Shown here: one piece after another, positions 19,675 to 59,500 of the stretch | Layout of the letters: each line of letters opens with the position of its first letter | Numbering within the stretch: position 1 is the stretch's first letter | Source: a virus | Length of the DNA stretch: 64,000 nt | Virus record (IMG/VR): IMGVR_UViG_3300003937_000092 | Location: 1-64,000 of that record | Strand: one strand, 5' to 3' | The notes under the pieces: model-generated | Told to the model about the DNA's origin: nothing | Seen by the model: the letters and a program-made list of their open reading frames with translations, nothing else | Database searches by the model: none | Translations under genes and position numbers: made by a program

Positions 19675-20682
19675 TTAAATACCGTTTAAGTTCTCAGTTT
19701 TATAAACTATTGATTCGTGGTCAATAAACCCTAACCCTTTTGGTGTTGGGAATTTATTAATCGGGGTAGCAACACAAAATAGTGGATTTAAAGTTACCGT
19801 GACTGGCTGATATTTTCTTAAAACTATCATCGACTTTCCTCCTCCATTCTTTTTCGTTACCGGTGCAACTAATATTAAATAATCAATATTATTTTCCATA
19901 ATATATACACCGTTACGAGAATAAACTCGGATACCACCTTTTTTCTTACTATTAAGAATCTCAGGATTGATTTTATCACAACTGGTCTCTTCGACAGAGT
20001 TTAAAGAATTTACCGTTTTTATTTGTATCTTATAAACCTTACCATCTTTAGACATAATAGCGTCGACACCAAGTTTAGTATCAATAGGACTACCTTCCGA
20101 TGCCATGTAATTTAATTCATAACCGAACTTCTCCATTTCACTCACAGCGAATATTTCATTTTCAGTTCCCGTTGAGGTGTTCTTTCTATTATTTAAAACA
20201 TAATCATCAAACCTACCTTCCAAATATTTTGTATAGTAATAGTCAGGGTTGGATAACATTTTATTAGATAACTCTAACATAAATGAACCATTACCATCAT
20301 TTAGGTCATTAAGACGTTTACAAATACATTCACCCTCACCAATTAAAATATCACTAATCAATACAGATAAATCACTATAATTAGTATTTAATTTATTTAT
20401 CGGGACCCAATCATTATTATCATCATACACCATTTTAATATTCATAAGACTATCAACTTTCTTATCAGAATAATTAAAGTAGGTTTTTAATACATCAGCA
20501 TCTTTTTTAAACTGTTCAGATTCGGGGTCGAGTACTTTCCTAACATCTTTCAACATTAAGTCTATAGGCTTTTGAAATGTATTACGAGTTCGAGGGGTGT
20601 TTAATTTCTTCTTAAAGTTATCGATACAACTTTGTTTTAAACAATTCTCTTTGAACTGACTATTTGTGATTATTACATCCAT
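19675..20682 (-). CDS. Predicted PD-(D/E)XK restriction-like nuclease
   Basis: A 335-aa protein starting MDVIITNSQFKENCLKQS, whose IITNSQ is reminiscent of the leader family but lacks the Glu. In the middle (about residues 175-225) the order is Glu in a helix (NEIFAVSEMEKFG), then Asp (KLGVDAIMSKDGK), then QIKT, which fits the E...D...(E/Q)xK nuclease fold. The gene at 7101 is another predicted nuclease of this class. I infer a DNA-cleaving enzyme, perhaps against host DNA. Substrate unknown. Confidence 0.55.
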   Translation of the reverse strand: MDVIITNSQFKENCLKQSCIDNFKKKLNTPRTRNTFQKPIDLMLKDVRKVLDPESEQFKKDADVLKTYFNYSDKKVDSLMNIKMVYDDNNDWVPINKLNTNYSDLSVLISDILIGEGECICKRLNDLNDGNGSFMLELSNKMLSNPDYYYTKYLEGRFDDYVLNNRKNTSTGTENEIFAVSEMEKFGYELNYMASEGSPIDTKLGVDAIMSKDGKVYKIQIKTVNSLNSVEETSCDKINPEILNSKKKGGIRVYSRNGVYIMENNIDYLILVAPVTKKNGGGKSMIVLRKYQPVTVTLNPLFCVATPINKFPTPKGLGFIDHESIVYKTENLNGI

Positions 20683-20705
20683 AATTTATAAATAGGTTAA
20701 TTGTT

Positions 20706-21083
20706 TCATAATTTATTTTGATTAATATATTCACTTGTTTTAACACGAGTCAGGGATGAATCAATGGTAATGTCACTATTAATGGTAATTGAAGTAAAAG
20801 GAAAAGGAACATATGACCATAAACTATAAATCTTCTCCTCCATCTTTATAATAGAAGAATGTTCACCACCCATCTCCTTCCAAACGTTGTAGTTAATTAA
20901 AATATCCAAAACGACCATATGACATTGTTCATGACCATCATTACACATCTTACTTAAAAAATCCCAACCATCGGCTCTGTCATAGACTCTAACACTATAC
21001 TCCTCCATAAGACCATTATCCTTATATAAAGAATTTATTAACTTCTCAACAAACATCTTAATGTTATCTTTCTTACTACCCAT
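20706..21083 (-). CDS. Hypothetical protein, 125 aa (paralogue of 21083-21502)
   Basis: A 125-aa protein, MGSKKDNIKMFVEKLINSLY. It resembles the upstream 139-aa protein in the pattern ME+KI..L.Y+P+P...I (here KMEEKIYSLWSYVPFPFT). This suggests a tandem duplication. It contains CNDGHEQCH, which could bind a metal. The genes overlap by one base. Confidence 0.5.
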   Translation of the reverse strand: MGSKKDNIKMFVEKLINSLYKDNGLMEEYSVRVYDRADGWDFLSKMCNDGHEQCHMVVLDILINYNVWKEMGGEHSSIIKMEEKIYSLWSYVPFPFTSITINSDITIDSSLTRVKTSEYINQNKL

Positions 21084-21502
21084 TATAAATTTTTTGTTCT
21101 ATCTTCCCATTTCTTTTTACTGAAATTTTCATGACTCTCACTAATGTATCTTATAATATTCACATTGGAGGGATAAGGTAAGTACTTCAGAATACCTTTA
21201 AGTTTATCTTCCATATCTTGAACAGCCAGATAACCCTCACCTGTATTACGATAAACCTTATCATCCATTAAAACATGGAGGTTAACATCAGGATGGAGTC
21301 GTTTAATTTCTTTGTCATCATAATTAACAATCTCAACCTTATAGTCTAATATAAGACCAGGGTAGGTATCCTTATACAATCCATCAATAAACTTATATAC
21401 CATCTCAGGGGTTATTTGATTACTATCCATCATATACATAAATATCCAACTTTCTACAAAATTTTCCAGAAAATTTGTTTTGACATTTGGACCCCTAATC
21501 AT
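21083..21502 (-). CDS. Hypothetical protein, 139 aa (paralogue of 20706-21083)
   Basis: A 139-aa protein, MIRGPNVKTNFLENFVESWI. It carries DMEDKLKGILKYLPYPSNVN, parallel to the neighbour. The first gene of the minus run that borders the gene-free region at 21.5 kb. No family recognised. Confidence 0.5.
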   Translation of the reverse strand: MIRGPNVKTNFLENFVESWIFMYMMDSNQITPEMVYKFIDGLYKDTYPGLILDYKVEIVNYDDKEIKRLHPDVNLHVLMDDKVYRNTGEGYLAVQDMEDKLKGILKYLPYPSNVNIIRYISESHENFSKKKWEDRTKNL

Positions 21503-21860
21503 ATAAGGGGGTCCCTTTTAGAAACACAGGTAACACTTACTCCCATACATAGAACAAGGGTAATCCTTTCCAATTTTTCCTAAAAAATTTTATAAACATT
21601 TTTACAACAAAAACAGTACACATTTTAATTAGGGGATTGAACCCCCTTTTGGACCCCAAAACACCCCCAGGGGGAGGGGGGATACGGGACCCCTATAGGA
21701 GGGGGGGACCCTATAAGGGGGGGTTCCATAGGTATTTTGACCCTACCCCCTCCGTATGGACATATCACAGTAGACCTCATCTATGGGGGTGGTGTCAGAA
21801 CAAGTTAACATACAAGTATATGGGGGGAAAGTTATTAACAGTCATTGTGTCATGTTCATA
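21503..21860. other. G-run-rich noncoding stretch
   Basis: No credible gene; a 74-aa frame at 21637-21861 consists of Gly/Pro/Arg noise from G and C runs. It holds an unusual cluster of G-runs at 21670-21723 and repeated GGGACCC(C)TATA units, then AT-rich sequence leading to the promoters at 21878. Confidence 0.6.
21670..21723 (+). repeat. G-run cluster, possible G-quadruplex
   Basis: Five G-runs lie within 54 bases: 21670-21674, 21676-21681, 21686-21688, 21701-21707 and 21717-21723. Four or more runs of three or more G can form a G-quadruplex. The GGGACCC(C)TATA unit appears twice here and in inverted form near 21505. Confidence 0.5.
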
Positions 21861-21877
21861 ACTTTATGGTGTGGGGA

Positions 21878-21909
21878 TTTGGCAGTGTCAGATATTATTC
21901 GTATCTTTG
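21878..21909 (+). promoter_or_regulatory. Host-type promoter 1 (TTTG-N20-TATCTTTG)
   Basis: TTTG (21878-21881), 20 bases, then TATCTTTG (21902-21909). This matches the Bacteroidota -33/-7 consensus. Two further copies with the same 20-base spacing follow within 240 bases. Confidence 0.7.
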
Positions 21910-21910
21910 T

Positions 21911-21966
21911 ACTGATGCCCTAAAGTTTAGGGTGTGACATTATAGGGGGACATATTGTCAGTACAA
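21911..21966 (+). ncRNA. Candidate small RNA 1
   Basis: Just downstream of promoter 1, GTACTGA (21909-21915) can pair with TCAGTAC (21958-21964) to close the molecule. CCCTAAA (21918-21924) and TTTAGGG (21926-21932) form an inner hairpin. The frame is too short and unremarkable for a protein. No terminator precedes the next promoter. Start is set by promoter spacing, end by the closing stem. Confidence 0.55.
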
Positions 21967-21969
21967 TTA

Positions 21970-22001
21970 TTTGGTGGTCTCATTTATTATATGTATCTTT
22001 G
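21970..22001 (+). promoter_or_regulatory. Host-type promoter 2 (TTTG-N20-TATCTTTG)
   Basis: TTTG (21970-21973), 20 bases, TATCTTTG (21994-22001). Identical spacing and -7 element to promoters 1 and 3. Confidence 0.7.
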
Positions 22002-22002
22002 T

Positions 22003-22080
22003 GTTGGTGCCCTTCCCTGAGGGAGGGAGGAGAGTATAAGGCAGGTTGGAGTCTACTCTCTCAGCTTGTTCCACCAACCA
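22003..22080 (+). ncRNA. Candidate small RNA 2 with three-way junction
   Basis: GTTGGTG (22003-22009) pairs with CACCAAC (22072-22078). Inside are a TCCC/GGGA-centred hairpin (22010-22027) and a seven-pair stem GAGAGTA (22030-22036) with TACTCTC (22054-22060). Three perfect stems in 76 bases make a compact three-way junction. It is not a tRNA: no T-arm GTTC sequence and no anticodon arm are visible. No intrinsic terminator is seen. Confidence 0.6.
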
Positions 22081-22115
22081 TTACAAAGATAAGGATAAAA
22101 AAGTTCTTATACAAG

Positions 22116-22146
22116 TTGTGTATTAAAAAAGATTGTTGTATCTTTG
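22116..22146 (+). promoter_or_regulatory. Host-type promoter 3 (GTTG-N20-TATCTTTG)
   Basis: TTG (22116-22118), 20 bases, TATCTTTG (22139-22146). Same spacing as promoters 1 and 2; the bases after it (TGTTGGTGC) match those after promoter 2. Confidence 0.65.
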
Positions 22147-22147
22147 T

Positions 22148-22224
22148 GTTGGTGCTTTAGAGTGTGGGGGATTTATTATACATACTTCCCACCCTACTAC
22201 CACCCTAAAGGTACCACTTTTTTT
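22148..22224 (+). ncRNA. Candidate small RNA 3 ending in an intrinsic terminator
   Basis: GGTG+CTTTAG (22151-22160) pairs with CTAAAG+TACC (22205-22215, one bulged G), and GTGGG (22064-... in register 22164-22168) with CCCAC (22188-22192). TTTTTTT at 22218-22224 follows directly, so the outer stem acts as a terminator. The beginning repeats the TGTTGGTGC start of RNA 2. Confidence 0.6.
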
Positions 22225-22266
22225 GTTAAGAAACAATATAAATAAGGGAATGTTATCTGCACAGAC

Positions 22267-22584
22267 TTAAATGTTATCCGCACCCTTGGTATGTTTGTCC
22301 ACAGTGTCCATCCCTATGTCAATAAACATTCTTCTTATATCGTGGTAGTTGGACTCATCCAATTGGTAGTATCTATTTAGGAATGTCAGTACATGATTCA
22401 AGTCAGCATCCACAATTATATATTGATTTGTAGATAGGGGTTTCTTACTCCATCCCCTCTTGGCAGGTTCAAACCATATTATCCCATCCCCAACCGTTGA
22501 GGTGAATATTACTTTGATACCATTCATATCCTCAGCTACCCTTGGGGTGAAACTACTCTCTATGAATTCTCTGATTTCTTCCAT
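22267..22584 (-). CDS. Hypothetical protein, 105 aa
   Basis: A 105-aa protein, MEEIREFIESSFTPRVAEDM, soluble and of mixed alpha/beta pattern. It sits alone on the minus strand between the small RNAs and a gene-free stretch. Its 3' end is 43 bases from the end of RNA 3, so the transcripts converge. No family recognised. Confidence 0.5.
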   Translation of the reverse strand: MEEIREFIESSFTPRVAEDMNGIKVIFTSTVGDGIIWFEPAKRGWSKKPLSTNQYIIVDADLNHVLTFLNRYYQLDESNYHDIRRMFIDIGMDTVDKHTKGADNI

Positions 22585-23388
22585 ACCCTTAAATATATAA
22601 CCCTTCCCTTAGTTGTGAACACCATATGTTAATAACTTTTAATTAAGGGGTACAGTTAATCCCCCATTAAAATTGTTAATAACTTTTTATAAATTACCTC
22701 TGACACACTGTCAGGGGATATTTTGTTAATAACTTTATCCCATTTTATTAGGATTTGTCAGAATGTCAGTTAGACGTTAGGGACAGCACAATCCCTTTCC
22801 CCACTTTCTACCACCATCCTGTAGTAGTGTAAAACAAGAAAATCCTTTATTTCACCGATGAAATCGACAATAAATCCCTGTTTAGGGGTTAATAGAAGGT
22901 ATTAATTTACTAGTTATATATTCTAGCAAATAATAGAGGTTAATTCCCTATAGCGGGGGAGACGTAGTCTTAAGGAATTAAATAAGTAAACCTCAACGTA
23001 TCTGTAGGACTACTTTTTTAAAACCATGACAAAATGACCTCAACGAATAAGGTCTTAAAATGACTTACAAAAGTGGGAGAAAGTGGTAGAAGTATTGTTA
23101 ATTAACCCTATGGGTTATTGTTTATATACTATAGTATTCTTTCTCTTATAGTATAATGTTTTCATATGTGTGTATATACCCTTTAGGGTACTGTAATGAT
23201 ATTGTTTTATTATACCCTACTAAGTTATGAGTATAAGTCTTTAGATGACCTTCTTCAGGGAAATAGGGGAATGGATTTATTTCAGACACTGAAAGTGAAC
23301 GATAGTGAACGTCCCTTTAGGGTGAGGGGGATGGAATTAATTTATTACCTTTATTTCCTTTCTCTATAAAATAACTTATATTGTATGT
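22585..23388. other. Gene-free divergent region, possible early control region
   Basis: I see no gene in these ~800 bases. There are several CCCTTTAGGG-type palindromes (for example near 23180 and 23310). The TTTCACCGATGAAA palindrome (22850-22863) is the inverse of that at 6210-6223. The neighbours 22267-22584 (minus) and 23389-24018 (plus) point away from it, so promoters or a replication origin may lie here, but I can define none. Confidence 0.45.
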
Positions 23389-24018
23389 ATGTTTAAATTT
23401 AATTATAAAGTTGGTAGAGCGATACCTAATGTAGAGTGTCAGATAATACTGAAGGATTTGTATAGACAATCTGAGAAGTTCACTATTACTGATGCCTTTG
23501 GTGATGTCTCCCTTTCTGTTTATGAAACCCCTTATGAGGATGTGGAAGACTGTGATGGTAAGAGACTCATGGATTATAGAATTAAAGAGTTAGAGAAGTC
23601 CTTAGGTGTTAAGTTTAATAGAGATAGGTTTATCATTAAGTATACAGGTGACCGTCTCGAAATGGAACCTCATTATGATGGGAGTTATACTACCACCCTT
23701 ATTTATTTAAACAATAACTTTAGAGGTGGCTCTACTAACTTTCCTCTCGCTCGTTTAGAACATGTACCTCAGAAATATAAGCCAGGTCATTACATACATT
23801 ATAACTCTAACCATATCTTGGCTTATCATGGTGGGATGCCAGTTACAGAAGGAACTAAAACTGTTATAGTACTTAGAAGTATGAAGATAACCCCGTGGAC
23901 TATGTTAACCATATTACCGTGGCGTTTATTTAGAGATGTATTCTTCGAAAGATTTATACTTGATTGGGTCGTAAAGAAATTCTTTACGTGTGTTAACTGT
24001 AAAAGAATTAAGAAATAA
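23389..24018 (+). CDS. 2OG-Fe(II) oxygenase, prolyl/lysyl hydroxylase-like
   Basis: A 209-aa protein. EPHYDGSYTTTLIYLN gives the H-x-D iron ligands (about residues 95-97), GGSTNFP follows, and AYHGGMPVTEGTKTVIVLRS supplies the distal His and the basic residue that holds 2-oxoglutarate. This is the arrangement of the prolyl 4-hydroxylase superfamily, which oxidises protein Pro or Lys (and other substrates) using Fe(II), O2 and 2-oxoglutarate. The three collagen-like fibres in this genome, rich in G-x-K and G-P-x, are attractive substrates, but that is inference. It heads a plus-strand run with rhamnose-pathway genes. Confidence 0.75.
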   Translation: MFKFNYKVGRAIPNVECQIILKDLYRQSEKFTITDAFGDVSLSVYETPYEDVEDCDGKRLMDYRIKELEKSLGVKFNRDRFIIKYTGDRLEMEPHYDGSYTTTLIYLNNNFRGGSTNFPLARLEHVPQKYKPGHYIHYNSNHILAYHGGMPVTEGTKTVIVLRSMKITPWTMLTILPWRLFRDVFFERFILDWVVKKFFTCVNCKRIKK

Positions 24019-24104
24019 TGATGTTAGTAGGATTAGTAGGTTGCTCTGTAGTCTATATTGGTTATAGTATAAAAGAAAGATTTGAAGGTAGACATAAATG
24101 GTAA
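24018..24104 (+). CDS. 28-aa single-helix membrane peptide
   Basis: ATG at 24018 overlaps the stop of the oxygenase gene (TAATG). The frame reads MMLVGLVGCSVVYIGYSIKE and ends RFEGRHKW, with one hydrophobic helix. The tight coupling on both sides supports a real gene. Confidence 0.5.
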   Translation: MMLVGLVGCSVVYIGYSIKERFEGRHKW

Positions 24105-24106
24105 GT

Positions 24107-24787
24107 ATGAAAAATAATGTATTGGTACTTGGTGATGGACTCTTGGGTCGTGAATTGATTAATCAGACTAATTGGGATTATGTTTCCCGTAGTAAGGATG
24201 GTTTCGATATTAACCACCTCGATGAGTTTATATTATCTAATTATGATATTGTTATTAACTGTATTTCACATACTGATACTTACGATAAAGATAGAGAACT
24301 TCATTGGAATGTTAACTGTAAGTTTGTGGATAAGTTAATTGATTACTGTAATGAACACTTTATTAAACTTATTCATATTTCTACTGATTATGTTTATTCT
24401 AATTCCATTCCCTTCGCCAGTGAGAATGATGTCCCTGTTCATTGTAATAATTGGTACGGTTATACTAAGTTATTATCTGACGGTCTTATTCAGTTAAGGT
24501 CTGAGGATTATCTTCTTATACGTTGTTCCCATAAACCCACTCCTTTTGTATATGATAACGCTTGGATTGATTATGTCGGTAACTTCGATTATGTGGATAC
24601 TATCGCCACTCTCATTATTGATTGTATTAATAAAGATTTGTCAGGTGTGTATAACGTAGGTACAGACGTTAAGACGATGTTTGACTTAGCTAATGAGACT
24701 AATGTTGTTGAATCCTCTTTTACCCCCTCACACGTCCCTAATAATCTTTCTATGGACCTAACTAAACTTAAGTCCTCACTCCCTTAA
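24107..24787 (+). CDS. rmlD: dTDP-4-dehydrorhamnose reductase-like protein
   Basis: I choose ATG 24107 (MKNNVLVLGDGLLGREL) because the upstream ATG at 24098 overlaps the preceding stop. The Rossmann nucleotide motif G-x-G-x-x-G, IHISTDYVYS and the catalytic YGYTK (Tyr-x-x-x-Lys) identify an RmlD/SDR-extended enzyme that makes dTDP-L-rhamnose from dTDP-4-keto-rhamnose. At 226 aa it is shorter than cellular RmlD (about 290). A relative, RmlC, lies at 25487 on the other strand. RmlA and RmlB are not in the window, so host enzymes or genes outside it are needed. Confidence 0.7.
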   Translation: MKNNVLVLGDGLLGRELINQTNWDYVSRSKDGFDINHLDEFILSNYDIVINCISHTDTYDKDRELHWNVNCKFVDKLIDYCNEHFIKLIHISTDYVYSNSIPFASENDVPVHCNNWYGYTKLLSDGLIQLRSEDYLLIRCSHKPTPFVYDNAWIDYVGNFDYVDTIATLIIDCINKDLSGVYNVGTDVKTMFDLANETNVVESSFTPSHVPNNLSMDLTKLKSSLP

Positions 24788-25948: not shown

Positions 25949-27091
25949 TTATTTATTAATTAATATACTTATCTCTCTTGCTAATTCTTTAAACCACTCC
26001 ACACTATGACCTCTTGTTGTTTCAGCTGCCGTACCTATTCGAATACCACTTGTTTCCACAAAACTTCTAGGGTCGTTAGGTATTCCATTCTTATTAACTG
26101 TAATACCGTTTTCTTCTAACATATCAGCGATTACTCTTCCACTATATTTCTTAGTTGATAAATCAATTAAAATTAAATGTGAATCGGTACCATCGGTTAG
26201 AATCGGTATATCATTTTCTCTGAAGATATCACACATATGTTTTGCATTTTCTTTTACTTTAATACAATACTCCTTAAAATCTCTTGTGTTTGCCTCTATG
26301 AAACATTGGGCCTTTGCTGCGATTATATGCATTAATGGTCCTCCCTGAGTACCAGGAAATATTGCTCCATTTATTTTCTTTGTATAGTCTGAATCGTTCC
26401 AAATAATAATACCACCTCTTGGTCCTCTAAGTGTTTTGTGTGTCGTTGAAGTTACTACATCCGCATATTCAATTGGATTGGGGTACTCACCTCCAGCAAT
26501 AAGACCTGAATAGTGAGCCATATCCACCAAAAGTATCGCTCCTACTTCATCAGCAATCTCTCTAAACTTTTTCCAATCGATTATCCTTGAGTAAGCACTC
26601 GCACCTGCAATAACCATTTTAGGTTTAACTTCTAACGCTTTAGTTCGTATATCATCATAGTTTAAATAACCATTATCATCCACACCATATGAATGAGCGT
26701 CGTATACTTTACCTGAAATATTAGGTTTACTTCCATGAGATAAGTGACCACCACTCGCTAAATCCATTCCAAGTATTGTATCACCTGGTTTTAGGAATGC
26801 TTGAAATACCGCAGTATTAGCGTTTGCACCACAATGTGGTTGAACATTAGCAAAGTTACAATTATATAACTTTTTTAATTCTTCTATTGCAAGTGTCTCC
26901 ACCTCATCCATATGGTCACATCCATTGTAATATCTTTTACCAGGATATCCTTCAGCATATTTGTTAGTGAATATTGAACCCGCCAATTTCATTACTGAAT
27001 CAGACGCAAAGTTCTCACTTGCTATTAATTCAATTGTATTAGATTGTCTAAAATTTTCTTTATCGAGTATCTCTTCTATTCTTTTGTCCAT
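25949..27091 (-). CDS. glyA: Serine hydroxymethyltransferase
   Basis: A 380-aa fold-type I PLP enzyme. SNTIELIASENFAS near the N-terminus, YPGKRYYNGC, and VTSTTHKTLRGPRGG with the PLP-binding Lys are the hallmarks. It converts serine and tetrahydrofolate into glycine and methylene-tetrahydrofolate, the carbon donor for thymidylate synthase. Cellular GlyA is about 415-420 aa, so this is a compact version with the core motifs intact. Phage-borne glyA is uncommon; with thyA and folA (both present here) it would close the thymidylate cycle. Confidence 0.9.
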   Translation of the reverse strand: MDKRIEEILDKENFRQSNTIELIASENFASDSVMKLAGSIFTNKYAEGYPGKRYYNGCDHMDEVETLAIEELKKLYNCNFANVQPHCGANANTAVFQAFLKPGDTILGMDLASGGHLSHGSKPNISGKVYDAHSYGVDDNGYLNYDDIRTKALEVKPKMVIAGASAYSRIIDWKKFREIADEVGAILLVDMAHYSGLIAGGEYPNPIEYADVVTSTTHKTLRGPRGGIIIWNDSDYTKKINGAIFPGTQGGPLMHIIAAKAQCFIEANTRDFKEYCIKVKENAKHMCDIFRENDIPILTDGTDSHLILIDLSTKKYSGRVIADMLEENGITVNKNGIPNDPRSFVETSGIRIGTAAETTRGHSVEWFKELAREISILINK

Positions 27092-30358: not shown

Positions 30359-31972
30359 CTATTTTTCCGTATTCTTTTTTTCGTTTATATCAAAATTCTC
30401 CTTCTCATAACCCTCTATATCATTGTAAGCATAAGTCTCAAAATTAGGATTTGTTTCAACCCAAGTTTTATATTCATATTGGTTATTTTTATTAACAAAT
30501 ATCTCATTAACTCTTAATTTTCTTTCTTCTAATTCCATCAACTGTTGATGTAAGTATTCCCTTTGTTCTCTATATTCAGGTTTATAAGCTAAATTATGTG
30601 ATTCCTCAATATCGTTAACTAAGTCGTATAACTCATATTCTTTTTGATATCTACCTAATGAATCGAAATAATATGTGTACTTCCAATCATGTGTACGGAT
30701 TGCCCTTAATCTATTAGTTGCTTTAACAGAAGATGGTAAATTATTCGAACCCGACTTAGTATCATCAAAAGTAAATAATATAGAATCTTGAACTGATTTA
30801 CCTTCCTCAATTATTGGTATTAAACTCTCACCTCTTGAGTTACTGTCTTTAGGTACACCAACAATCTCAGATATCGTTGGGAATATATCAATAAGTGTTG
30901 CTAATTCATCTGACGATTCTTTTTTGTTAAACACAATAGGGTTTGATATCACCATAGGTATTCTTAACGCCTCTTCATAAGCAACAAAAGCCTTTTGTCT
31001 CATACCACCATGTGACATCCCCATCTCTCCGTGGTCCGCCAATCTTATAACCACCGCATCATCAGCGAGTCTACTACCTTTGGTATCATCATAAAGTACA
31101 TCAATAAATTTACCAATTTCACCATCAATCTTAGTTAGTAGGTATGCGTAAAAATTTAAGTAATTCAATTTCATATCATCATTTCGTAAGACACCTAATA
31201 AACCATCAGCAGCAATGTTTGTTTGTAATTGAGCCATAGGTTTACCATTTTTAAGTAATTGTTCCGTAACTGTAGGTGGTAAGTCGGTAATAGTTCTACC
31301 AGTATATTCATCGGGAGTATAACCAAATTGTACTGACTTTGGATAACCTAACACATCATGAGGATTTACTAAACTTAATACTAAACAATAAGGTTTTCTT
31401 GGTTCACCCTTTTGTCTACTGATTCTTACCTGTTCTAAATACTCTATACCTTCTTTCACATACCTTGCATCAGCATTTGGATAACCCCCACCAAAGTTTT
31501 CAGGTTTCGCATCTTCACCCGCATCAGGTCCAACCCAACCTTTAAACCCATAAAGTGATATTTCTTTAGCTAATGGGTCACCACCATCAGCACCTTTACT
31601 TAAATGCCATTTACCTCTGTATTGTACATCGTAACCGATACTATCTAACATCTTACCAATGTTATTACTTTTATTATTTAATTGTATTTCACCAGGTGAG
31701 TATATACCACCTGTTGTTAAGGTTTCAGTACATTGATGTTGTGATGGGTACGTACCAGTAAATAAAGTAGCTCTACTCGGTGTACACATACAACTATTAC
31801 AGAAGGCTTTATCAAATGTGAAACCATTATCTTTTAATTTAGTTAGTGTTGGTAGATTTTCTTGTTCCCATCCTTCAGGAAAGTACTGAGTGGCTCTCTC
31901 TTGGTCTGTTATTATTATTACAATATCAGGTTTATCAACAAGTAATTCTTTAAATTTGTTTTGTTTTTTCAT
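30359..31972 (-). CDS. Type I sulfatase (formylglycine-dependent)
   Basis: A 537-aa protein. PDIVIIITDQERATQY supplies the metal-binding start and CMCTPSRATLFTGTYPSQHQ the C-T-P-S-R-A signature, in which Cys is oxidised to formylglycine by a host FGE/anSME enzyme. GMSHGGMRQKAFVAYEEALR is the later metal-site region. Such enzymes hydrolyse sulfate esters of algal polysaccharides or choline sulfate. No signal peptide is visible, so action in the cytoplasm or in the virion must be considered. Heads the operon with the 43-aa peptide and a clan-B lipoprotein. Phage sulfatases are rare. Confidence 0.85.
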   Translation of the reverse strand: MKKQNKFKELLVDKPDIVIIITDQERATQYFPEGWEQENLPTLTKLKDNGFTFDKAFCNSCMCTPSRATLFTGTYPSQHQCTETLTTGGIYSPGEIQLNNKSNNIGKMLDSIGYDVQYRGKWHLSKGADGGDPLAKEISLYGFKGWVGPDAGEDAKPENFGGGYPNADARYVKEGIEYLEQVRISRQKGEPRKPYCLVLSLVNPHDVLGYPKSVQFGYTPDEYTGRTITDLPPTVTEQLLKNGKPMAQLQTNIAADGLLGVLRNDDMKLNYLNFYAYLLTKIDGEIGKFIDVLYDDTKGSRLADDAVVIRLADHGEMGMSHGGMRQKAFVAYEEALRIPMVISNPIVFNKKESSDELATLIDIFPTISEIVGVPKDSNSRGESLIPIIEEGKSVQDSILFTFDDTKSGSNNLPSSVKATNRLRAIRTHDWKYTYYFDSLGRYQKEYELYDLVNDIEESHNLAYKPEYREQREYLHQQLMELEERKLRVNEIFVNKNNQYEYKTWVETNPNFETYAYNDIEGYEKENFDINEKKNTEK

Positions 31973-35554: not shown

Positions 35555-36613
35555 TTAATTACTTAATGGAGCTTTAATAGTTGGTTTATAATTATAATTT
35601 ATTAATTCATAGTTGAATTCACCACCTAATAAATTAACACCTTTAAAGTTAATATGTGGTAAATCGTAACCTTCTCTCTTAATCTGTTCTTTAGCCTGAT
35701 TTAAATGATTTTGATATAAATGGACATCACCTAAATTACCTATTAATTGGTCTGGTATCATATGTACCTCTTTTGCAATTAACATAAGTAAAGTAGCATA
35801 TGAAGAAATGTTAAATGGTAACCCTAAGAATGTGTCTACAGACCTTTGGTTCCACATTAATGATATAGCTCTCTTTGGTGTTGGTTCGTGTCTTTTATCA
35901 TCAAAATCAGGTAGGTTTTTAGGGTCGAAATATCTTTCCATACCTGTCTCATAATTATTTTTGAACCAGTATTCATATCTCTCTTTATCAGTTAATAATC
36001 TAGTGTATATTTGAAACCCATAATGACATGGAGGTAAAGTCATTAAATCTAACTCCCCAACATTCCAAGCACTAACCATTAACCTTCTTGAGTCTGGATT
36101 CCTTTTAAGTTGTTCAAGTAAATTTTTAATTTGGTCAACACTTTTTTCGTTATAAACTTGTAACGTATCCCCTTCAAATACTTGCTCACCTTCTTGAAAC
36201 CATCCTCTCCACTGAGCACCATATACAGGACCTAACTCACCCCATGTCTTTGCAAATTCATCATCGGTTTTGATTCGTTCAATAAACTCATCCATAGTAT
36301 CAGGCCAATTACCTTTATACTCATTAGTTTTACTAATATAGTTTTTGAAAGCATCACCATTCCAAATGTTACATCCGTTGTCCACCAAGTACTTGATGTT
36401 GGTATCTCCTTTTAAGAACCACTTCAATTCAGTCATCATTGTTTTGACTGCCATCTTCTTTGTGGTAAGAAGAGGAAACCCTTCTTTCATATTATGTCTT
36501 ATAGTATAACCAAAAATAGACTTAGTACCCGTACCAGTCCTATCTGATTTATCTACACCATGTTCTAAAATAGTAGATAGTAATTCGTTATATTGTTTAT
36601 CAATACTATTCAT
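35555..36613 (-). CDS. thyA: Thymidylate synthase
   Basis: A 352-aa ThyA. SDRTGTGTKSIFGYTIRH near the N-terminus, LPPCHYGFQIYTRL with the catalytic Cys, SLMWNQRSVDTFLGLPFNIS and GDVHLYQNH are the classic motifs. It makes dTMP from dUMP using methylene-tetrahydrofolate. At 352 aa it is longer than E. coli ThyA (264), with an insertion around residues 75-150 like that of some Gram-positive enzymes and another before PKRAIS. With folA and glyA here it completes the cycle that feeds phage DNA synthesis. Confidence 0.97.
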   Translation of the reverse strand: MNSIDKQYNELLSTILEHGVDKSDRTGTGTKSIFGYTIRHNMKEGFPLLTTKKMAVKTMMTELKWFLKGDTNIKYLVDNGCNIWNGDAFKNYISKTNEYKGNWPDTMDEFIERIKTDDEFAKTWGELGPVYGAQWRGWFQEGEQVFEGDTLQVYNEKSVDQIKNLLEQLKRNPDSRRLMVSAWNVGELDLMTLPPCHYGFQIYTRLLTDKERYEYWFKNNYETGMERYFDPKNLPDFDDKRHEPTPKRAISLMWNQRSVDTFLGLPFNISSYATLLMLIAKEVHMIPDQLIGNLGDVHLYQNHLNQAKEQIKREGYDLPHINFKGVNLLGGEFNYELINYNYKPTIKAPLSN

Positions 36614-39429: not shown

Positions 39430-40343
39430 AAAAAAAACCTCAGTCGGTTAGAACTGAGGTTAAGGAAGATATATAATAGAGTATAGAACGCTGAGATTAC
39501 ACGTTTATGGTGACTTGTCTTTAGTGAGATTACCCTATATCGGTTGCTCATGTATCCACTCTCGTTGCCGAAAGTATCAAGTCAGTGTCGGTTATTTGAG
39601 TGAACCACTCTTTTCGTTAACAACTACTCAACTACTACTTTACTCTGTCAAACCTTGCGAGTTCACTAAGGGACGGCCATCCCACCAGGTATTTGATAAT
39701 TGACATCAGGAGACTTGCGGTCTACCGATGACTTCGTTAGTCTATTGACTCGAAGTGTTAGACACCTTTCGTTGTCAACGCCCGAAGAACTTTTGCTCTC
39801 TTTTAGTTTTAGTAAAAGTAACGATGGAAATGAGAAAGATGTGCTTCGGGAGAAGTTTCGTTTCTTTTGAAAACAAAATGCTTCACACCTCTCTGTAAGT
39901 CTGTCAACTTACGGTACTTCAGGAATACGTTAACTTATCGTATCGGAATTCCTTTGTACTGGTACTCAGCCCTACAACACCTGACAGGGTGTGTCGAACC
40001 GTCACCTGTAGCTTTTCCTATTGATATCACTATCTCAACTCTGATATTCCACGGACTCAGAGTGGTCTCGTCCCTTTAGCAGTTGCCCTTAGGGTCTTGA
40101 CCGTAGCCACTTTGTTTAGTTGTCAGAGTAAACTCTGCGAATATTCACGATGTACTATTCTCGTTTCAATCCCTTTAGTCCCATTGCTGGGGTTATCTAA
40201 CGACGCTAAACCGCCGTCAAATGTCATACTTAACCGTTTAAGAAAAAGGGGTTAATCTTTTGTATTCCTTTCACAAACTGTGATGGTTAAGGTGACACTT
40301 ACTAATATTTTCAAAGAACGTCTTCAGTACTCTTACTGAATTG
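39430..40343 (-). ncRNA. Long structured non-coding RNA, about 0.9 kb
   Basis: No believable ORF exists on either strand across more than 900 bases, while neighbouring genes are packed. In minus sense the stretch has a host-type promoter at 40349-40380, and a second at 40452-40481. A perfect hairpin (40323-40340, TTCAGTA/TACTGAA) lies at the expected 5' end, and a strong terminator at the other end. Further stems: 40271-40283, 40124-40137, 40038-40044 with 40057-40063, 39895-39912, and CCCGAAG (39781-39787) with CTTCGGG (39844-39850). Size, setting and structure resemble GOLLD and ROOL, the giant RNAs of phages, but I could not match either. Confidence 0.75.
39436..39461 (-). terminator. Terminator of the long non-coding RNA
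   Basis: AACCTCAGT (39436-39444) pairs with ACTGAGGTT (39453-39461), nine pairs. In minus sense TTTTTTTT follows. It marks the 3' end of the transcript from the 40.3-40.5 kb promoters. Confidence 0.85.
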
Positions 40344-51497: not shown

Positions 51498-52553
51498 ATG
51501 AAAGAAAAAATTATCAATATACTATCGGGAGGTTCAGGTGAGGTTGAAGACTTTATCAACCGTTATCTCAATGGAGATAAGGATAGTTTTTTTGATTTGT
51601 TAGAAAGGTTTGGGTTACTTCAAAACTCCGACACATACGAAAGTGTTATTGAAATGTTTCCAATGACTTATCTAAGAAAGAGTTATATTGATGACCGTAA
51701 AAAAACTATCGATAACATTGTTTCCACTTATAGTGATATAACTAAGAAAGGTGATAAATATTTTTTAACTCTTGGTGAAAGGTCAGACTTAAGTATTTTT
51801 TTTAAATCAGATGACGGTAATCGTGAAATGTCATCATCGGAAATGGTTAAAAATATTTTAGGTGAAGATGATTGGTTCGAACCATTTAGCGATGTTACTC
51901 AAAATTTGTATACCGATGTTATTGAAGAGTTAAATGAAAAAAATAAATTCTTACTTGCCAAATCAATATCTGAAGAATTATCAGGAACTCAAATTTCACC
52001 CGAAACTGAGTTATTAGAAAATATGGCTAAAGACCAAGGTCACCCCGATTATGTTGATGTTAAAGACCCTATGTTAGTAATGGATATTTTAGAAGAAGAT
52101 GAAACATCTACTAAAGTTTTATTAGATGAAGCTTCTGAAGTTTCAAGTAATTTATATTCACTTCACCATAACTCATATAATACAGCATATACCGATGAAA
52201 AGTATAATGAAATAATGAGTGAAGTTAGAAGTTTATTGGAGATAGATAATAGTGGTGATTGGGAATCTAAGACCATAAAGAATAGTAAAGGTGAGGAGAA
52301 AACTATATATAACTACATCATTGAAGTTACCAAATTCATACCTTTTTTATTTAGTTCAATTTTTAATGATGACTATCAATTAGATGATTATAGAAATGCA
52401 TTTGACTATTATGGTGACTTTGAAGACCTCACTAAAGAAATGATTACTGAGGAAGTAATTGAAGGTGCATCAATGAGTAGAAGTTATTATGATTATGCCG
52501 ACCATACTTTAGTTAAAAAGTATTTAAATGATATGATTATTGATTACGTTTAA
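51498..52553 (+). CDS. Hypothetical acidic protein, 351 aa
   Basis: A 351-aa acidic, helical protein, MKEKIINILSGGSGEVEDFI. Many Asp/Glu/Ser and no recognised motif. It starts downstream of its own ATATTTAT element and is convergent with the collagen-like gene (17-base overlap of the 3' ends). Function unknown. Confidence 0.5.
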   Translation: MKEKIINILSGGSGEVEDFINRYLNGDKDSFFDLLERFGLLQNSDTYESVIEMFPMTYLRKSYIDDRKKTIDNIVSTYSDITKKGDKYFLTLGERSDLSIFFKSDDGNREMSSSEMVKNILGEDDWFEPFSDVTQNLYTDVIEELNEKNKFLLAKSISEELSGTQISPETELLENMAKDQGHPDYVDVKDPMLVMDILEEDETSTKVLLDEASEVSSNLYSLHHNSYNTAYTDEKYNEIMSEVRSLLEIDNSGDWESKTIKNSKGEEKTIYNYIIEVTKFIPFLFSSIFNDDYQLDDYRNAFDYYGDFEDLTKEMITEEVIEGASMSRSYYDYADHTLVKKYLNDMIIDYV

Positions 52554-55500
52554 ACTTTCCCTCTAACTCAGTTAGTTCACCATCTTTATCCTTTAAGATT
52601 AATTCTTGTTCCTTAATTGCTTCAAATAATACTGAGATTAATTGTTCATAACTAACTTTATAACCTCTTTCTTCTGAACCACCAATTAATTCAGGTAAAA
52701 CTTCTTTTACCTCTTGAGCAATAACTCCAATATCTTTTCTACCACCATCAAGTAAAACGGTACCATCGAGATTTTCTTCTTTCCATATAAATTCAACACC
52801 ACGTAGATTTAAAACTTTCTGTAAAGGTGTATCAATTTTTTTAATATTTTCCTTTAATCTTTTATCGGAAAAAGAACCCGCCGGACCTTGGGCTCCTGCC
52901 GGTCCTTGAGTTCCTTGAATACCTTGTGAGCCTTGACTTGAAGTTCGTCCTTTTAAACCTTTTTCTCCGGTTCTACCTTTAATCCCTTTAAGTCCTTTTG
53001 GTCCTTTTTGTCCTGCTGGCCCTGTTGGTCCGCCAGAACCTGTAGGTCCTTTTGGACCTTGCGGACCTTGTGGTCCATCTTTACCAAGTACACCTTTTGG
53101 ACCTTTAGGTCCTTTATAACCTTTATGTCCTTTTAGGCCTTTTGGTCCTTTAGCTCCTTTAGGACCTTTAGGTCCTTTAAGACCTTTTTCAGTACTTGCC
53201 GGTCCTTGTGGTCCTGTATCACCTACGTCTCCTGACCCTTGAGATAATCTTGGTCCTTTTAAACCTTGGGGTCCTTGCGGTCCTCTAGGACCTTTGTAAC
53301 CTTTTGGACCTTTAAATCCTTTTTCCCCTGTATTCCCCTTATGACCTTTAGGTCCTTTGGGTCCTTGTCCACCTTTGAACCCTTTAGGTCCTTTTGGTCC
53401 TTGACTACCTACATTTCCTCTTGGTCCCTTTTCTGAACTTGCCGGACCTTCTTTACCTGTCGGACCTGTCGCCCCTCCAGAGGCTTTGGGTCCTTGTGGA
53501 CCTGTAGGCCCTTGCGGTCCTCGTGGTCCTTGGGGTCCTCGTGGTCCTGGCTCATTACCATCAGCACCTACAGCCCCTTTAGGTCCTTGTGGACCTTGTC
53601 CAGGTTGATAACCTGTAGGTCCTTGTGGACCTTGTCCACCTCTCGGACCTTTAATACCTTTATTACCTTTATCCGTACTTGCCGGACCTTGTGGTCCTGT
53701 AGGTCCATTAAGACCTTGACTAGCTTTAGGTCCTTGTGGTCCTTGTGAACCCTGAGGCCCTCTTGGACCCTTATTACCTTCTGGTCCCCTAACAGAACTT
53801 GCCGGTCCTTGTGGACCTTGTTGACCCGTTGCCGCTCTCGGCCCTTTGTAACCCTTAATACCTTTATCTGATGTTTGTGATTTAAGACCACCTTTTAAAC
53901 CTTTATTACCTTTATCAGTACTTGATGGACCTGTCGGTCCTTGTGGACCTGTATCACCACCAGAACCTTGTGTTGCCTTAGGCCCTTGTGGTCCTAAATC
54001 ACCTTTAATACCTTTATTACCTTGTGGACCTCTATCTGTACTTGCCGGACCTTGTGGTCCTGTAGGTCCATTAGTACCTTGACTAGCTTTAGAACCTTGT
54101 GGTCCTTGCGAGCCTTGGCTTTGTCGTGGACCTATAGCTCCTTTTGGTCCTGCAGTATTACCTGCCGGTCCTTTGGGTCCTGTTGGTCCTTGAATACCTG
54201 TACCTGACGCACTACCTTGGGGACCTCGGTTACCATCATTACCTTGTGGTCCTTTTGGTCCTATTGGACCTCTATCAGTACTTGCAGGTCCTTTTGGTCC
54301 TGTAGGACCTGTTGCCCCATTAGATGCTTTAGGTCCTTGTGACCCTTGTGTACCTCTCCCTGTCTGTAAACCTTTTGGTCCTTTATAACCTTTTAAACCT
54401 TTATCTGTTGAAGATGGTCCCTTATCACCTTGTGTGGTATTTTTAGTACCTTTTGGTCCTGTAGGACCGGTGGGGCCATTTGGTCCTTTAGTACCTTTAT
54501 AACCTTTTTGCCCTTTAATACCTTTATCAGTACTTGATGGACCTGTCGGTCCTTGTCCACCGGTAGTTCCCTTTGGTCCTGTCGGACCTTGAGGTCCTTG
54601 TCCACCTTGATTACCTCTAGGACCTTTTGGTCCTTGTGTTCCTTTATCAGTATTAGTTGGACCTGTTGGTCCTTGTGGACCTTTAAGTCCTTTATCGGCA
54701 TTATTAGGTCCTGTTGGTCCGTTGGGTCCTGTTGGTCCCGTTATACTATTTCCAATAGTTCCTCTCGGTCCATCTGTACCTTTCGGTCCTTTGATACCTT
54801 TGATACCTTTATTACCTTTATTTGTGGACGTACCACTCGGACCTTTTTCAGCTGTTGGACCTGTTGGTCCTTGTGTTCCTCTCGCCCCTTTAGGTGAAGT
54901 ACCAATTGTACCTCTCGGTCCTTGAAAACCTTTAGGTCCCTTATCACCTGTAGGTCCTTGTAGTCCTTTATCTGTATTTGTTGGTCCAATATCTCCACCA
55001 ACGGCAACATCACCTATAAGTCCCTTTTCATTATTACCTTGAGGTCCCTGAGGCCCTTGTGGTCCTCTTAACCCTTTAGTACCTTCTGGTCCTTTTAAAC
55101 CTTTGTCAGAACTTGCAGGTCCAATTGGTCCTTGTGGACCTGTAGGTCCTTGTGACCCTGAACTAGTTGATGATTGTGGTCCGATTAATCCTTTAATACC
55201 TTTGATACCAATTAATCCCTTTAACCCTTTCGTACCTTTATCAGTACTTGCCGGTCCTTGAGGTCCGTTATCTCCACCAGAACCTGTAGGTCCTTTTAGT
55301 GAATCACCCTGCAACCCTCTATCTCCATCAAATCCTTTTGGTCCTGTCGGTCCTTGTGGACCTATTGGTCCTTTAACGGCTGCTGGTCCACCTGGACCTG
55401 TTGGACCTTGTGGTCCGATAAATCCTTTTTCACCTTGTGTACCTATTACACCTCTACCTTGTTTAGGTCCTTTAATACCCTTGATACCTTTAATACCCTT

Positions 55501-56508
55501 GATACCTTTATCACCTTTGTCTGTAGATTGTGGACCTCTTGGTCCTAAATCACCATCAGGTCCTTGTACACCTACAATACCATCAGGACCTTGCGGACCT
55601 TGTGGTCCTGTAAGACCTTTTATACCTTTGTTACCAATAGGTCCTTTATCAGCGGTAGGTCCTGTTGGTCCTTGTGGTCCATTATCCCCATCTGTCGACC
55701 TAACACCTTTATCACCTTGTGGACCTTGATTTCCAAGAATACCTTTTTGTCCCTTTACACCTTTTATACCTTTTGGTCCTTTTTGACCTTTATCTGATGA
55801 TGTCGGCCCTTTTAAACCTGTTGGCCCTTGAGGTGAATCACCACCTATACTACCTTTTGGTCCTTGTTCAGGTTTTAGACCCTTATTTCCTTTAACACCT
55901 TTAAGACCTGTCGGACCTTTAGTTCCTTTATCTGAAGATGTTAACCCTTTTAGACCTGTTGGTCCTTTAAGACCTTTTGTTGAGTCTGACGGCTTTAACC
56001 CTTTTAACCCTTTAGGTCCAACAATACCTTTCTCACCTTGTGGTCCTCGGTTACCTTTATCCCCTTTGACTGAAAGCTCACCTTTGATTCCTTTTTCTCC
56101 GTCAGAACCAATACCACCTTTGATACCGAAGTCACCTTTATCACCTGTAGGTCCAACGATTCCCTGAATACCTTTATTACCTTTTAAACCTTTATCACCG
56201 TCAACACCTTGTAGTCCTTTGAGACCTTTTTGACCTTTAAGACCTTCTGTCTGCCCAACCCAATGACCTCCAGAGTCAACTACCATCATACTACCAACAT
56301 AAAGTTCACTATTAATAACATTAACCTCACCTGGTAATGATAATGGAGTAGCACTATCAGATATTTTAAAAATATTTGTAGAAGACTTAAATACTAAATC
56401 ACCTGTAGTATCTATTTCAATAGTATAATCAACACCTGTACCACTAAAAATTATATGTGGATTGGTGTTTAATGTACTTCCCGTAGGATATATTATAATA
56501 TTAGCCAT
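52537..56508 (-). CDS. Collagen-like fibre with S74 chaperone, 1323 aa
   Basis: A 1323-aa fibre. Residues ~1-90 form a beta-rich head-attachment-like N-terminus. Residues ~90-1210 are Gly-X-Y repeats, Lys- and Pro-rich ([14 protein letters not shown]), broken at intervals by G-P-x-S-T-D-K-G steps. The last ~110 residues ([19 protein letters not shown], then [16 protein letters not shown]) are a Peptidase_S74-type intramolecular chaperone, which trimerises fibres and cuts itself off; S, D and K of the first motif are in place. This should be a trimeric receptor-binding or side fibre. It is the downstream partner of two further collagen-like genes. Confidence 0.9.
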
Positions 56509-59500
56509 TAATCTATTTGTGTTCTTAACCAGTTTATTTGTTCCTCTATGTCTTCAATAAATACTTGTTGACTTTTAATCGCTTCAATAATTAATGCATT
56601 TAATTTATAATACTTAATAGCTAAATAACCATCATCCCTTCTATAAACTACTTCAGGATATAATAAGTTTATTTCTTGTGCTATCATACCAATTGAATGT
56701 AATTTTTGTCTTTCCTTTAAGAAGTCATATCCTGTATAATTTTCATTCCAATCATATTCCGTAACATTAATTTTTAGTAACTTATTCAAAGAGTCACTTA
56801 ATGTTTTAGTACCATGTTTAAGTCTACTATCAGAAGCCCTACAATCGGCACAAGCATATATTTCACAAGCATTTACTACTGATTTAGGTGGTGGTGTAAT
56901 TACCCATGAAAATAAAACTCCACCTAAGTTGACCGCGTCCCATATAGTTATAAAATCTGTAGATAGATTTCTCATACATGGTAATCCCTCAAATTCTCTA
57001 CAATCTTTACAATCTGGGTCAGTATAGAGGATATCACCCTGAGCTAATGGTTGTATATCACCTTTATATACAGTCAAATTTACCTTATCTCCACATGGGC
57101 TACTTCTACCATTACAATACGCACAATCTTCACCTGCTCTTACCGCAATGTCATGAGCGAAACAAAACGCACCACCTGTGGGTCCTTTTATACCTTTATT
57201 ACCTTTTAAACCTTTTGGTCCTGTTGGTCCAGATAACGCTGCTGGTCCATCTGACCCTTGTGGGCCTCTTGGTCCTTGTGGACCTTGAAGACCTTGTGGA
57301 CCACTACCACCTTGTCGACCTTTATACCCTTTAGGTCCTTTATAACCTTTATAACCTTTTGGTCCTGTTGGTCCTTGTGGTCCGGGATTTCCAGCGATAC
57401 CTGTTTGACCCTTATCTGTAGAAGCATTACCTCTCGGACCTTGTGGTCCTCTTGGTCCTGTTTTAGATGATTGTGACCCTTTCGACCCTTGAGGTCCTCT
57501 TGGGCCCTTGTAACCTTTAATTCCTTTATGTCCTTTTAAACCTTTTGGTCCTAATGGTCCTATTGGTCCTGTCGGTCCTTGAGATGTGCTTTGGGTACCT
57601 ATTAGTCCTCTACCACCTTGTGGACCTCTACCACCTTGTGGACCTTTTGGTCCTTTTGGTCCTTTAGTTGTATTAGTTGTTCCTTGTGGACCACGAGTAC
57701 CTTTATCACTATTTGCTGGCCCTGTAGGTCCTAACTGACCCTTTAAACCTTTCTCACCTGTAATACCTTTTAGTCCTTTGAAAGCGGCTGGACCTCCAAT
57801 ACCTACAGCACCTTTTGGTCCTTTTGAAGTACTTTGAGGACCTGTCGGTCCTTGTGGACCTTTTGGTCCTTTTAGTCCTGTTGGACCTGTATCACCATTT
57901 TGAGCGGTCGGTCCATTTGGCCCTCTTTCTCCTTTATAACCTTTAACTGAACTACCAGTTCCTTGTGGTCCTAAAGGTCCTTTATACCCTTTATGTCCTT
58001 TTAACCCTTTTAACCCTTTGAATGCTGCGGGTCCACCTGCACCTGTTGGACCTGTTGGACCACTTTGTGTTCCTTGATTTCCTGTCGGTCCTTTAGGTCC
58101 TATTAAACCTTTTGTACCTTTTAATCCTTTGAATGCTGTCGGTCCTGTCTGTCCTTGAGGACCTCGTGGTCCTTTATCACCAGCAACACCTGTTGTCGCT
58201 CCTTGTGGTCCTAAAGGTCCCTTATATCCTTTAGGTCCTTTAGTCCCTTTTTTACCTTTAATACCTTTAAATGCTGCCGGACCTGTTGGACCTTGTGGTC
58301 CTCCATCGGCAGTTGATGGTCCTTGTGGTCCCTTAGGTCCTTTATACCCTTTATGTCCTTTTAACCCTTTTAACCCTTTGAATGCTGTCGGTCCATTATC
58401 CCCTGTTGGACCTTGAGGTCCACCATCTCCTGTCGCTGAACCTATTGGACCTTTTGGTCCATAAGCCCCTTTAATACCTTTTTGACCTTTAAGTCCTTTA
58501 TAGGCTGTTGGTCCATTATCTCCTCCAGGTCCTGTAGGTCCTTGAGATGTACTTTGTGTTCCTTTCGGCCCTTTAGGTCCTTTAGGTCCTTTATAACCTT
58601 TTATTCCTTTTAGTCCTTTAAATGCTGCCGGACCTGTTGGACCTTGTGGTCCTTGTTCTCCACCAGTACCTGTTGTTGTTCCTCTTCCACCCTGTGGTCC
58701 TCTTGGTCCCTTAATACCTATTAATCCTTTACTACCTTTTACTCCATCAGTTGCTCTTAATCCTTTGAGACCTTTTTGACCCTTAAGACCTTTAACTGTT
58801 GAAGTAGTACCTCTACTACCATCTGGACCTTTATAACCTTTTTGACCTTTTATACCTTTATCACCATCAGTGGCTCTAAAACCTTTTTGACCTTTAATTC
58901 CTTTGTCACCTGCAGATACACTTATTAAACCTTTATCACCAGTAACACCTTTTAACCCTTTTAAACCTTTAGGTCCTTTATTACCTTGTGGTCCTTTATA
59001 ACCTTTTTGACCTTTGATACCTTTATAACCCTTTTGCCCTTTGATACTTTCAGGACCTTGTGGGCCCGCATCACCTTGACTGGCTTTAAGTCCTTTATTT
59101 CCTTGAGGCCCTATTAAACCTTTTAACCCTTTAAAACCTTTATTACCTTTTAATCCTTTAAGTCCTTTATTACCTTGGTCCGCCACTGGTCCCGTTGGTC
59201 CTTGTGGTCCTCCATCACCTTGACTCGCGATTAAACCTTTAGGTCCTTTAGGTCCCTTAACACCTTTCTTACCTTTTAATCCTTTATAACCTTTATTACC
59301 TTTATCTCCCTGTGGTCCTCTTTGACCCTTTTCCCCTGTAGGTCCTAACTCATTACCTTGGCTTGTTGGCCCTTGAGGTCCTTTTGTCCCATCAATACCC
59401 TTTTTACCTTTTAACCCTTTTAATCCTTTAAGTCCTTTAAGACCTTTATCCGCTCCCTCACCATCTTGTGAAACTGGACCTTGAGCTCCTTGGTCAGCAA

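Follow-up and report, generated by a model that had tools for sequence, protein, structure and literature searches.

The region at 21878-22224 of the window, by which we mean the whole 64,000-nucleotide stretch of phage DNA analyzed here (bases 1-64000 of a 72,156-base source record), very probably contains a gene for a small structured RNA on its minus strand, and this RNA is one of a family of ~100 distinct copies found in the gaps between genes of Bacteroidota phages. A widespread small-RNA family is thereby added to the non-coding gaps of these phages, with up to nine copies per record. Sequence comparison demonstrates a conserved core, its structure, its strand, and a sigma-ABfr-like promoter directly upstream in most copies. 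As to the complete interpretation, we lean modestly toward a stand-alone structured small RNA of the minus strand that represents a new family of Bacteroidota phages and acts in trans as a protein binder. A sequence-only reading of the region had instead described a cluster of three plus-strand small RNAs, each behind its own promoter. Its view of the cluster as non-coding, equipped with host-type promoters, and holding at least one structured RNA is borne out, but the comparative evidence backs an RNA of the minus strand.

A scan of IMG/VR for TATCTTTGTGTTGGTG yielded 39 stretches, mostly chance matches, although several held more of the second proposed RNA (unit 2), AGGTTGGAGTMTACTC included, while a scan for AGGTTGGAGTMTACTC yielded 85 stretches, some contigs having several copies. 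When aligned, the copies exhibit a common core and a promoter located upstream on the strand opposite to the one read earlier; the 3' half of the former "RNA 2" is the complement of the conserved minus-strand RNA. From 5' to 3', the RNA consists of a leader, GGG, a variable hairpin (P2), two purine-rich bases, GAG-UANA-CUC (P3), CRA, CCU-R-CC, and a second variable hairpin (P4), often followed by a T-tract. We built a covariance model (R1) from a ten-sequence seed that excluded the window, using a MAFFT alignment and a structure assigned by hand. R1 finds a sole match in the 72 kb record, and the features of the small RNA at this site are as follows.

22084-22114, minus strand: promoter of the small RNA, (C)TTG-N20-TATCTTTG, with its -7 box TATCTTTG at 22091-22084
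~22083 down to ~22005, minus strand: inferred span of the small RNA, judged from where its promoter lies and from folds, with the 3' end a guess from the P4-like stem
22035-22082, minus strand: conserved core (P1, P2, P3, and the start of P4), matched by R1 with 55.7 bits, E 6e-15
22061-22077, minus strand: P2 hairpin, UUGGU (22077-22073) with GCUGA (22065-22061), wobble-rich, from the R1 alignment
22049-22058, minus strand: P3, GAG-UAGA-CUC, the most conserved segment
22008-22042, minus strand: P4-like long-range stem, UGCCUU (22042-22037) with AGGGCA (22013-22008)

Thus, P2 and the GAG-UANA-CUCCRAC core both occur on one strand, the minus strand of the window, and the sense TANNTTTG box that precedes the core by 30-90 nt in most family members is present here as TATCTTTG. 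This minus-strand promoter, whose -33 box is just CTTG, had been overlooked. The P4-like stem encloses a CCCUCCC/GGGAAGGG hairpin in the fold of the identical G006 sequence (L134), and the evidence for it is weaker than that for P2.

Within the family, compensatory changes strongly support P2, with more weakly supported structure in P4. Among 84 distinct members, 94 pair cells are double-changed, nearly all of them in P2, compared with 19 in shuffles (0/500 reach the observed count) and ≤18 when the partner is slid by 1-3 columns, while a wider member set gave 112 double-changed cells versus 26 when shuffled; both alignments were fitted to R1, and their counts consequently lean toward the model. 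The ten-sequence seed alone yielded 9 double-changed cells versus 2.3 in shuffles, again with 0/500 reaching the observed value. In the minus-strand sense, G-U and U-G pairs outnumber A-C and C-A combinations in the P2 cells by 62 to 6. This bias establishes the coding strand and disfavors both a DNA palindrome and an RNA of the other strand, since neither would create it. One variant of the RNA, GAGUAUACUC, is self-complementary, and the locus is a clear case of the strand of a near-palindromic RNA gene being misread, resolved by the G-U versus A-C test. In P3, GAG stands opposite CUC in most copies, even in those with extra loop bases (GGAGGUAGACUCC, UUGGAGUGUAGACUCCAA). The P4 stem scored 10.7 versus 9.5 in shuffled flanks (0/200), and in four loci (L153, L163, L166, and L168) AACCUGCCUUAU can pair with a downstream AUAAGCAGGUU to create a longer P4, which is followed by a conserved GGGGGUU...AACUCCCC stretch. 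P1 and P3 do not amount to proof, as their variation is too low or was constrained in part by the patterns used in the search; P1 (GG/CC), a candidate closing stem, is paired in 98% of cells and is too uniform to be claimed.

The plus strand of the same region carries three promoters and two further hairpin units outside of unit 2.

21878-21909, plus strand: promoter 1, TTTG-N20-TATCTTTG, kept in G006 and L074
21970-22001, plus strand: promoter 2, oriented toward the promoter of the small RNA
22115-22146, plus strand: promoter 3, GTTG-N20-TATCTTTG, arranged back to back with the promoter of the small RNA
21909-21964, plus strand as listed: hairpin unit 1, closed by GTACTGA/TCAGTAC, kept in G006 and absent from G008 and G021
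22147-22224, plus strand as listed: hairpin unit 3, with a T-run, from its fold

The earlier description of three tandem promoters with the same spacing was correct: KTTG-N20-TATCTTTG occurs exactly at 21878, 21970, and 22115, and these are all of its matches in the window, where 0.07 are expected and none of 100 shuffles reached three. The published consensus of sigma-ABfr, the primary sigma factor of Bacteroidota, is TTTG / TAnnTTTG (PMC7366714), with which the consensus of the three promoters agrees. The plus-strand promoters are also found in related phages, and close relatives of the window have a plus-strand promoter of the form TATCTTTG-TNN-TGRYGC opposite the promoter of the small RNA. 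Equally accurate were the absence of coding sequence, as no ORF of ≥60 aa lies within 21878-22224, and the identical start of RNAs 2 and 3, as TGTTGGTGC is present exactly twice, at 22002 and 22147. TGTTGGTGC appears to be an instance of TNN-TGRYGC, a promoter-proximal sequence shared by many promoters of these phages. A weaker second minus-strand -7 box that had also escaped notice, TACCTTTA at 22213-22206, faces plus-strand promoter 3; the -33 box that goes with TACCTTTA is intact in the relatives G008 and G021 and degenerate in the window, as is the facing promoter of unit 1. In three loci (L035, L086, and L116), two TATCTTTG-TNN-TGRYGC promoters face each other over a short inverted repeat, and a pattern search for facing TGRYGC inverted repeats found them in four contigs only, which marks this layout as a local variant rather than a family rule. 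A transcript from plus-strand promoter 2 would be antisense to the minus-strand small RNA. Just left of the promoter cluster, 21640-21760 contains long intergenic G and C tracts.

These promoters and units could be taken to indicate three plus-strand small RNAs, one per promoter, with the minus-strand signal being secondary, a reading that we regard as unlikely. The promoters are indeed strong, non-random, and recurrent in relatives, and the layout of L116 resembles that of the window, with hairpin units of the same promoter type flanking the RNA on both sides. The units also fold somewhat better than their shuffles, but only modestly so (z -0.4 to -2.5 overall; by the ends chosen, -0.4 to -2.0 for unit 1, -1.8 to -2.5 for unit 2, and -0.8 to -1.7 for unit 3), and therefore the observation of foldable units holds as a statement about sequence and is not proof of three RNAs. 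The minimum-energy fold of unit 2 includes the closing stem and the CCCTTCCC hairpin, while its third arm differs from the one described earlier. As a functional plus-strand RNA, the three-way junction proposed for unit 2 is not confirmed: its closing stem is weakened in the relative G021 (GTTGACG versus CACCAAC) and absent in G008, whereas the minus-strand core that runs through the same bases is nearly invariant. The G-U bias likewise places the conserved structure on the minus strand. Nor do the three RNAs form a single family that one covariance model could describe, as R1 matches at one place and not at units 1 and 3. At the end of RNA 3, where a terminator had been assigned, the window has a T-run that is interrupted in G021. 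From their sequences, "RNA 1", "RNA 3", and the plus-strand side of "RNA 2" are best described as hairpin units, several of them with facing promoters. G021 and G008 each carry a composite of the 5' half of unit 1 and the 3' half of unit 2, an arrangement suggesting that the units recombine. A purely DNA-level element, such as inverted repeats or a protein-binding or origin site, would accommodate the long intergenic stretch and the several units that are imperfect inverted repeats with facing promoters (as in L035, L086, and L116), but this explanation is very improbable: a palindrome would not yield 62 G-U against 6 A-C cells, the promoter is found at a steady distance and on one side only, and the GC skew exhibits no clear origin-like switch.

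Turning from the window to the family as a whole, R1 matches number 1-9 per record, with nine in a 52.8 kb record, eight in each of two records (128 and 206 kb), six in two, and five in three. A sense TANNTTTG box precedes the core by 30-90 nt in most of 112 copies (64 at 30-60 and 26 at 60-90), while about one-fifth of copies have no recognizable promoter box at the expected distance. A further sense box is present 70-100 nt downstream in 25/112 copies, and in L128 and L129 this is the promoter of the next gene. L128 and other multi-copy phage loci have a TTTGG-N-TATCTTTG promoter before nearly every gene, with a shared start such as TATTGTCAATTT after it. The RNA is also carried by a 635 kb metagenomic phage, and the exact core has a single occurrence in ~85,000 bacterial and archaeal species genomes, on a MAG contig. 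BLASTN of 20500-24000 against named phages yielded no match, while searches started from other family members led to Tenacibaculum phage Larrie and Cellulophaga phage phiST. Both have two R1 matches, which in phiST are at KC821604 2428-2478 and 595-645 on the minus strand, with TATCTTTA as the promoter box. The phiST site is also present in phi13:1, and phi19:2 contains a similar match. In the annotated regions that we fetched for the named carriers, no gene is annotated at the RNA. Because these unannotated copies reside in cultivable phages (phiST on Cellulophaga baltica and Larrie on Tenacibaculum), expression, structure, protein partners, and the effect of deletion are directly testable.

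The arrangement of the copies also bears upon whether the RNA belongs to the next downstream gene as a cis-acting leader, an attenuator, or a put-like antitermination element. The RNA does lie directly behind a promoter, with hairpins and a T-tract, and in the window it is upstream of minus-strand genes starting at 21502. However, the next minus-strand ORF is ~500 nt away, many copies closely precede another promoter (the 25 of 112 with a further sense box 70-100 nt on), and many are oriented against their flanking genes. A cis leader is less likely for these reasons, and we would assign it a small chance of being correct.

The stand-alone small RNA has a recurrent protein neighbor, which in the window is encoded by the following gene.

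22267-22584, minus strand: P0001, neighbor gene of 105 aa, with the RNA on its 3' side

Clustering of the ORFs near the copies placed the P0001-type family in 32 loci, compared with 11 for the next family, and the RNA was 3' of the P0001-type gene in all 32 loci with a certain gene nearby, usually 100-500 nt away. The two are on the same strand in the window's clade and on opposite strands elsewhere. In a reverse test of 25 loci selected by the protein alone, the RNA was recovered at ~19/25, a count that is not fully independent, as some of these loci are on contigs already known as RNA carriers and others are new. R1 placed the RNA 3' of the gene and in the opposite orientation in ~18 of the 25, weakly in two of these; one more, L180, shows it by eye, and in L189 and L194 a weak match is on the same strand as the gene. 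P0001 had no match in Pfam or PHROG. Its predicted structure is confident (pLDDT 85), and a search for structural relatives returned none that was significant, the best having a Z of 5.5 and not being distinctive. The pairing of the RNA with P0001 could reflect gene order shared by descent. Two other genes near the RNA cluster are kept near it in relatives, one with a weak 2OG-Fe(II) oxygenase match (23389-24018, plus strand) and one encoding an RmlD-type epimerase (24098-24787, plus strand).

We compared the RNA with known RNAs. At gathering scores, the 4227 models of Rfam 15 identified only GOLLD in the whole window, away from the small RNA, and lax scans of the cluster together with 19 related loci produced nothing credible at the small RNA. 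A GOLLD (RF02032) identity was rejected, as the model matches only 39488-39893 (minus strand) in the window. 6S RNA, including the Bacteroidetes form 6S-flavo (RF01685), had no match in the lax scans, and ARAGORN predicts no tRNA or tmRNA in the window. On the phage contig of L080, 581-613 (plus strand) is a near-threshold match to the DUF805b RNA (32.9 bits against a cut-off of 35.6, E 1.6e-5). A literature search found no description of the family, in agreement with the earlier reading, which knew of no described family like it. The general kind, a phage-encoded structured non-coding RNA, is known from GOLLD, ROOL, and the T4 stable RNAs, while the family itself is apparently undescribed and is absent from Rfam 15.

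To our knowledge, the family is unusual in being dispersed in multiple copies, most of which have their own promoter, and in having a recurrent protein neighbor. The T4 stable RNAs (species 1 and 2) and the phi29 pRNA are likewise small structured phage RNAs, a resemblance tested by Rfam scan only, but they are single-copy, and we know of no recurring protein neighbor for them. The put elements of HK022 are structured RNAs close behind a phage promoter, with more than one per genome, that act in cis on long operons; the new RNA is similarly structured, near a promoter, and often present more than once per genome, but many of its copies look like isolated short units. GOLLD and ROOL are structured non-coding RNAs of phages and prophages with unknown function (PMC12286853). 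The new RNA resembles them in being structured, non-coding, and phage-carried, even sharing the window with a GOLLD, but they are RNA cages of hundreds of bases, whereas it is ~75-100 nt, often multi-copy, and unrelated in sequence. The manA and wcaG motifs, which belong to a set of phage or Bacteroidetes RNA motifs identified by comparative genomics, are treated as regulatory parts of mRNAs (PMC2864571). They too were detected by covariation in phage and metagenome DNA and have no known function, but the new RNA looks like its own unit and matches no Rfam model.

For the mode of action, we propose that the small RNA, ~75-100 nt in length, would be transcribed by the host RNA polymerase and would end near P4 or at the T-tract before the next promoter. 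It may then act in trans by binding a protein, as a decoy or scaffold, rather than by base pairing. The bound protein could be of host or phage origin, and the neighboring P0001-type protein is one candidate. Protein binding is favored over base pairing because the core is embedded among hairpins and the window contains no second complementary site of ≥10 nt; taken by itself, this step is tentative, and we rate it at somewhat below an even chance. Antisense action in trans, through pairing of the core with target mRNAs, would fit the core being the most conserved part, as is often the case in seed regions, but the same lack of a second complementary stretch in the window, together with the GAG/CUC pairing that hides part of the core, makes this quite unlikely. 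The facing plus-strand promoters of the window's clade would produce an antisense RNA that could tune the small RNA. At its most extended, and with a low probability, the multi-copy RNA and the divergent P0001-type protein would constitute an RNA-protein module for host takeover or counter-defence, with antisense transcription from facing promoters setting the dose in some clades.

Elsewhere in the window, the GOLLD RNA at 39488-39893 (minus strand) is full-length (293 bits, model positions 1-416 of 416). Reports of GOLLD usually place it close to tRNA islands, and this window has no tRNA predicted by ARAGORN. The phage also encodes a 537-aa sulfatase (30359-31972, minus strand; PF00884 and PF16347), as well as two enzymes of nucleotide metabolism, serine hydroxymethyltransferase (25949-27091, minus strand) and thymidylate synthase (35555-36613, minus strand). 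Long tail-fibre-like proteins with matches to collagen-like and other tail-fibre families are encoded at 52537-63999 (minus strand), where the G+C content is above that of the rest.
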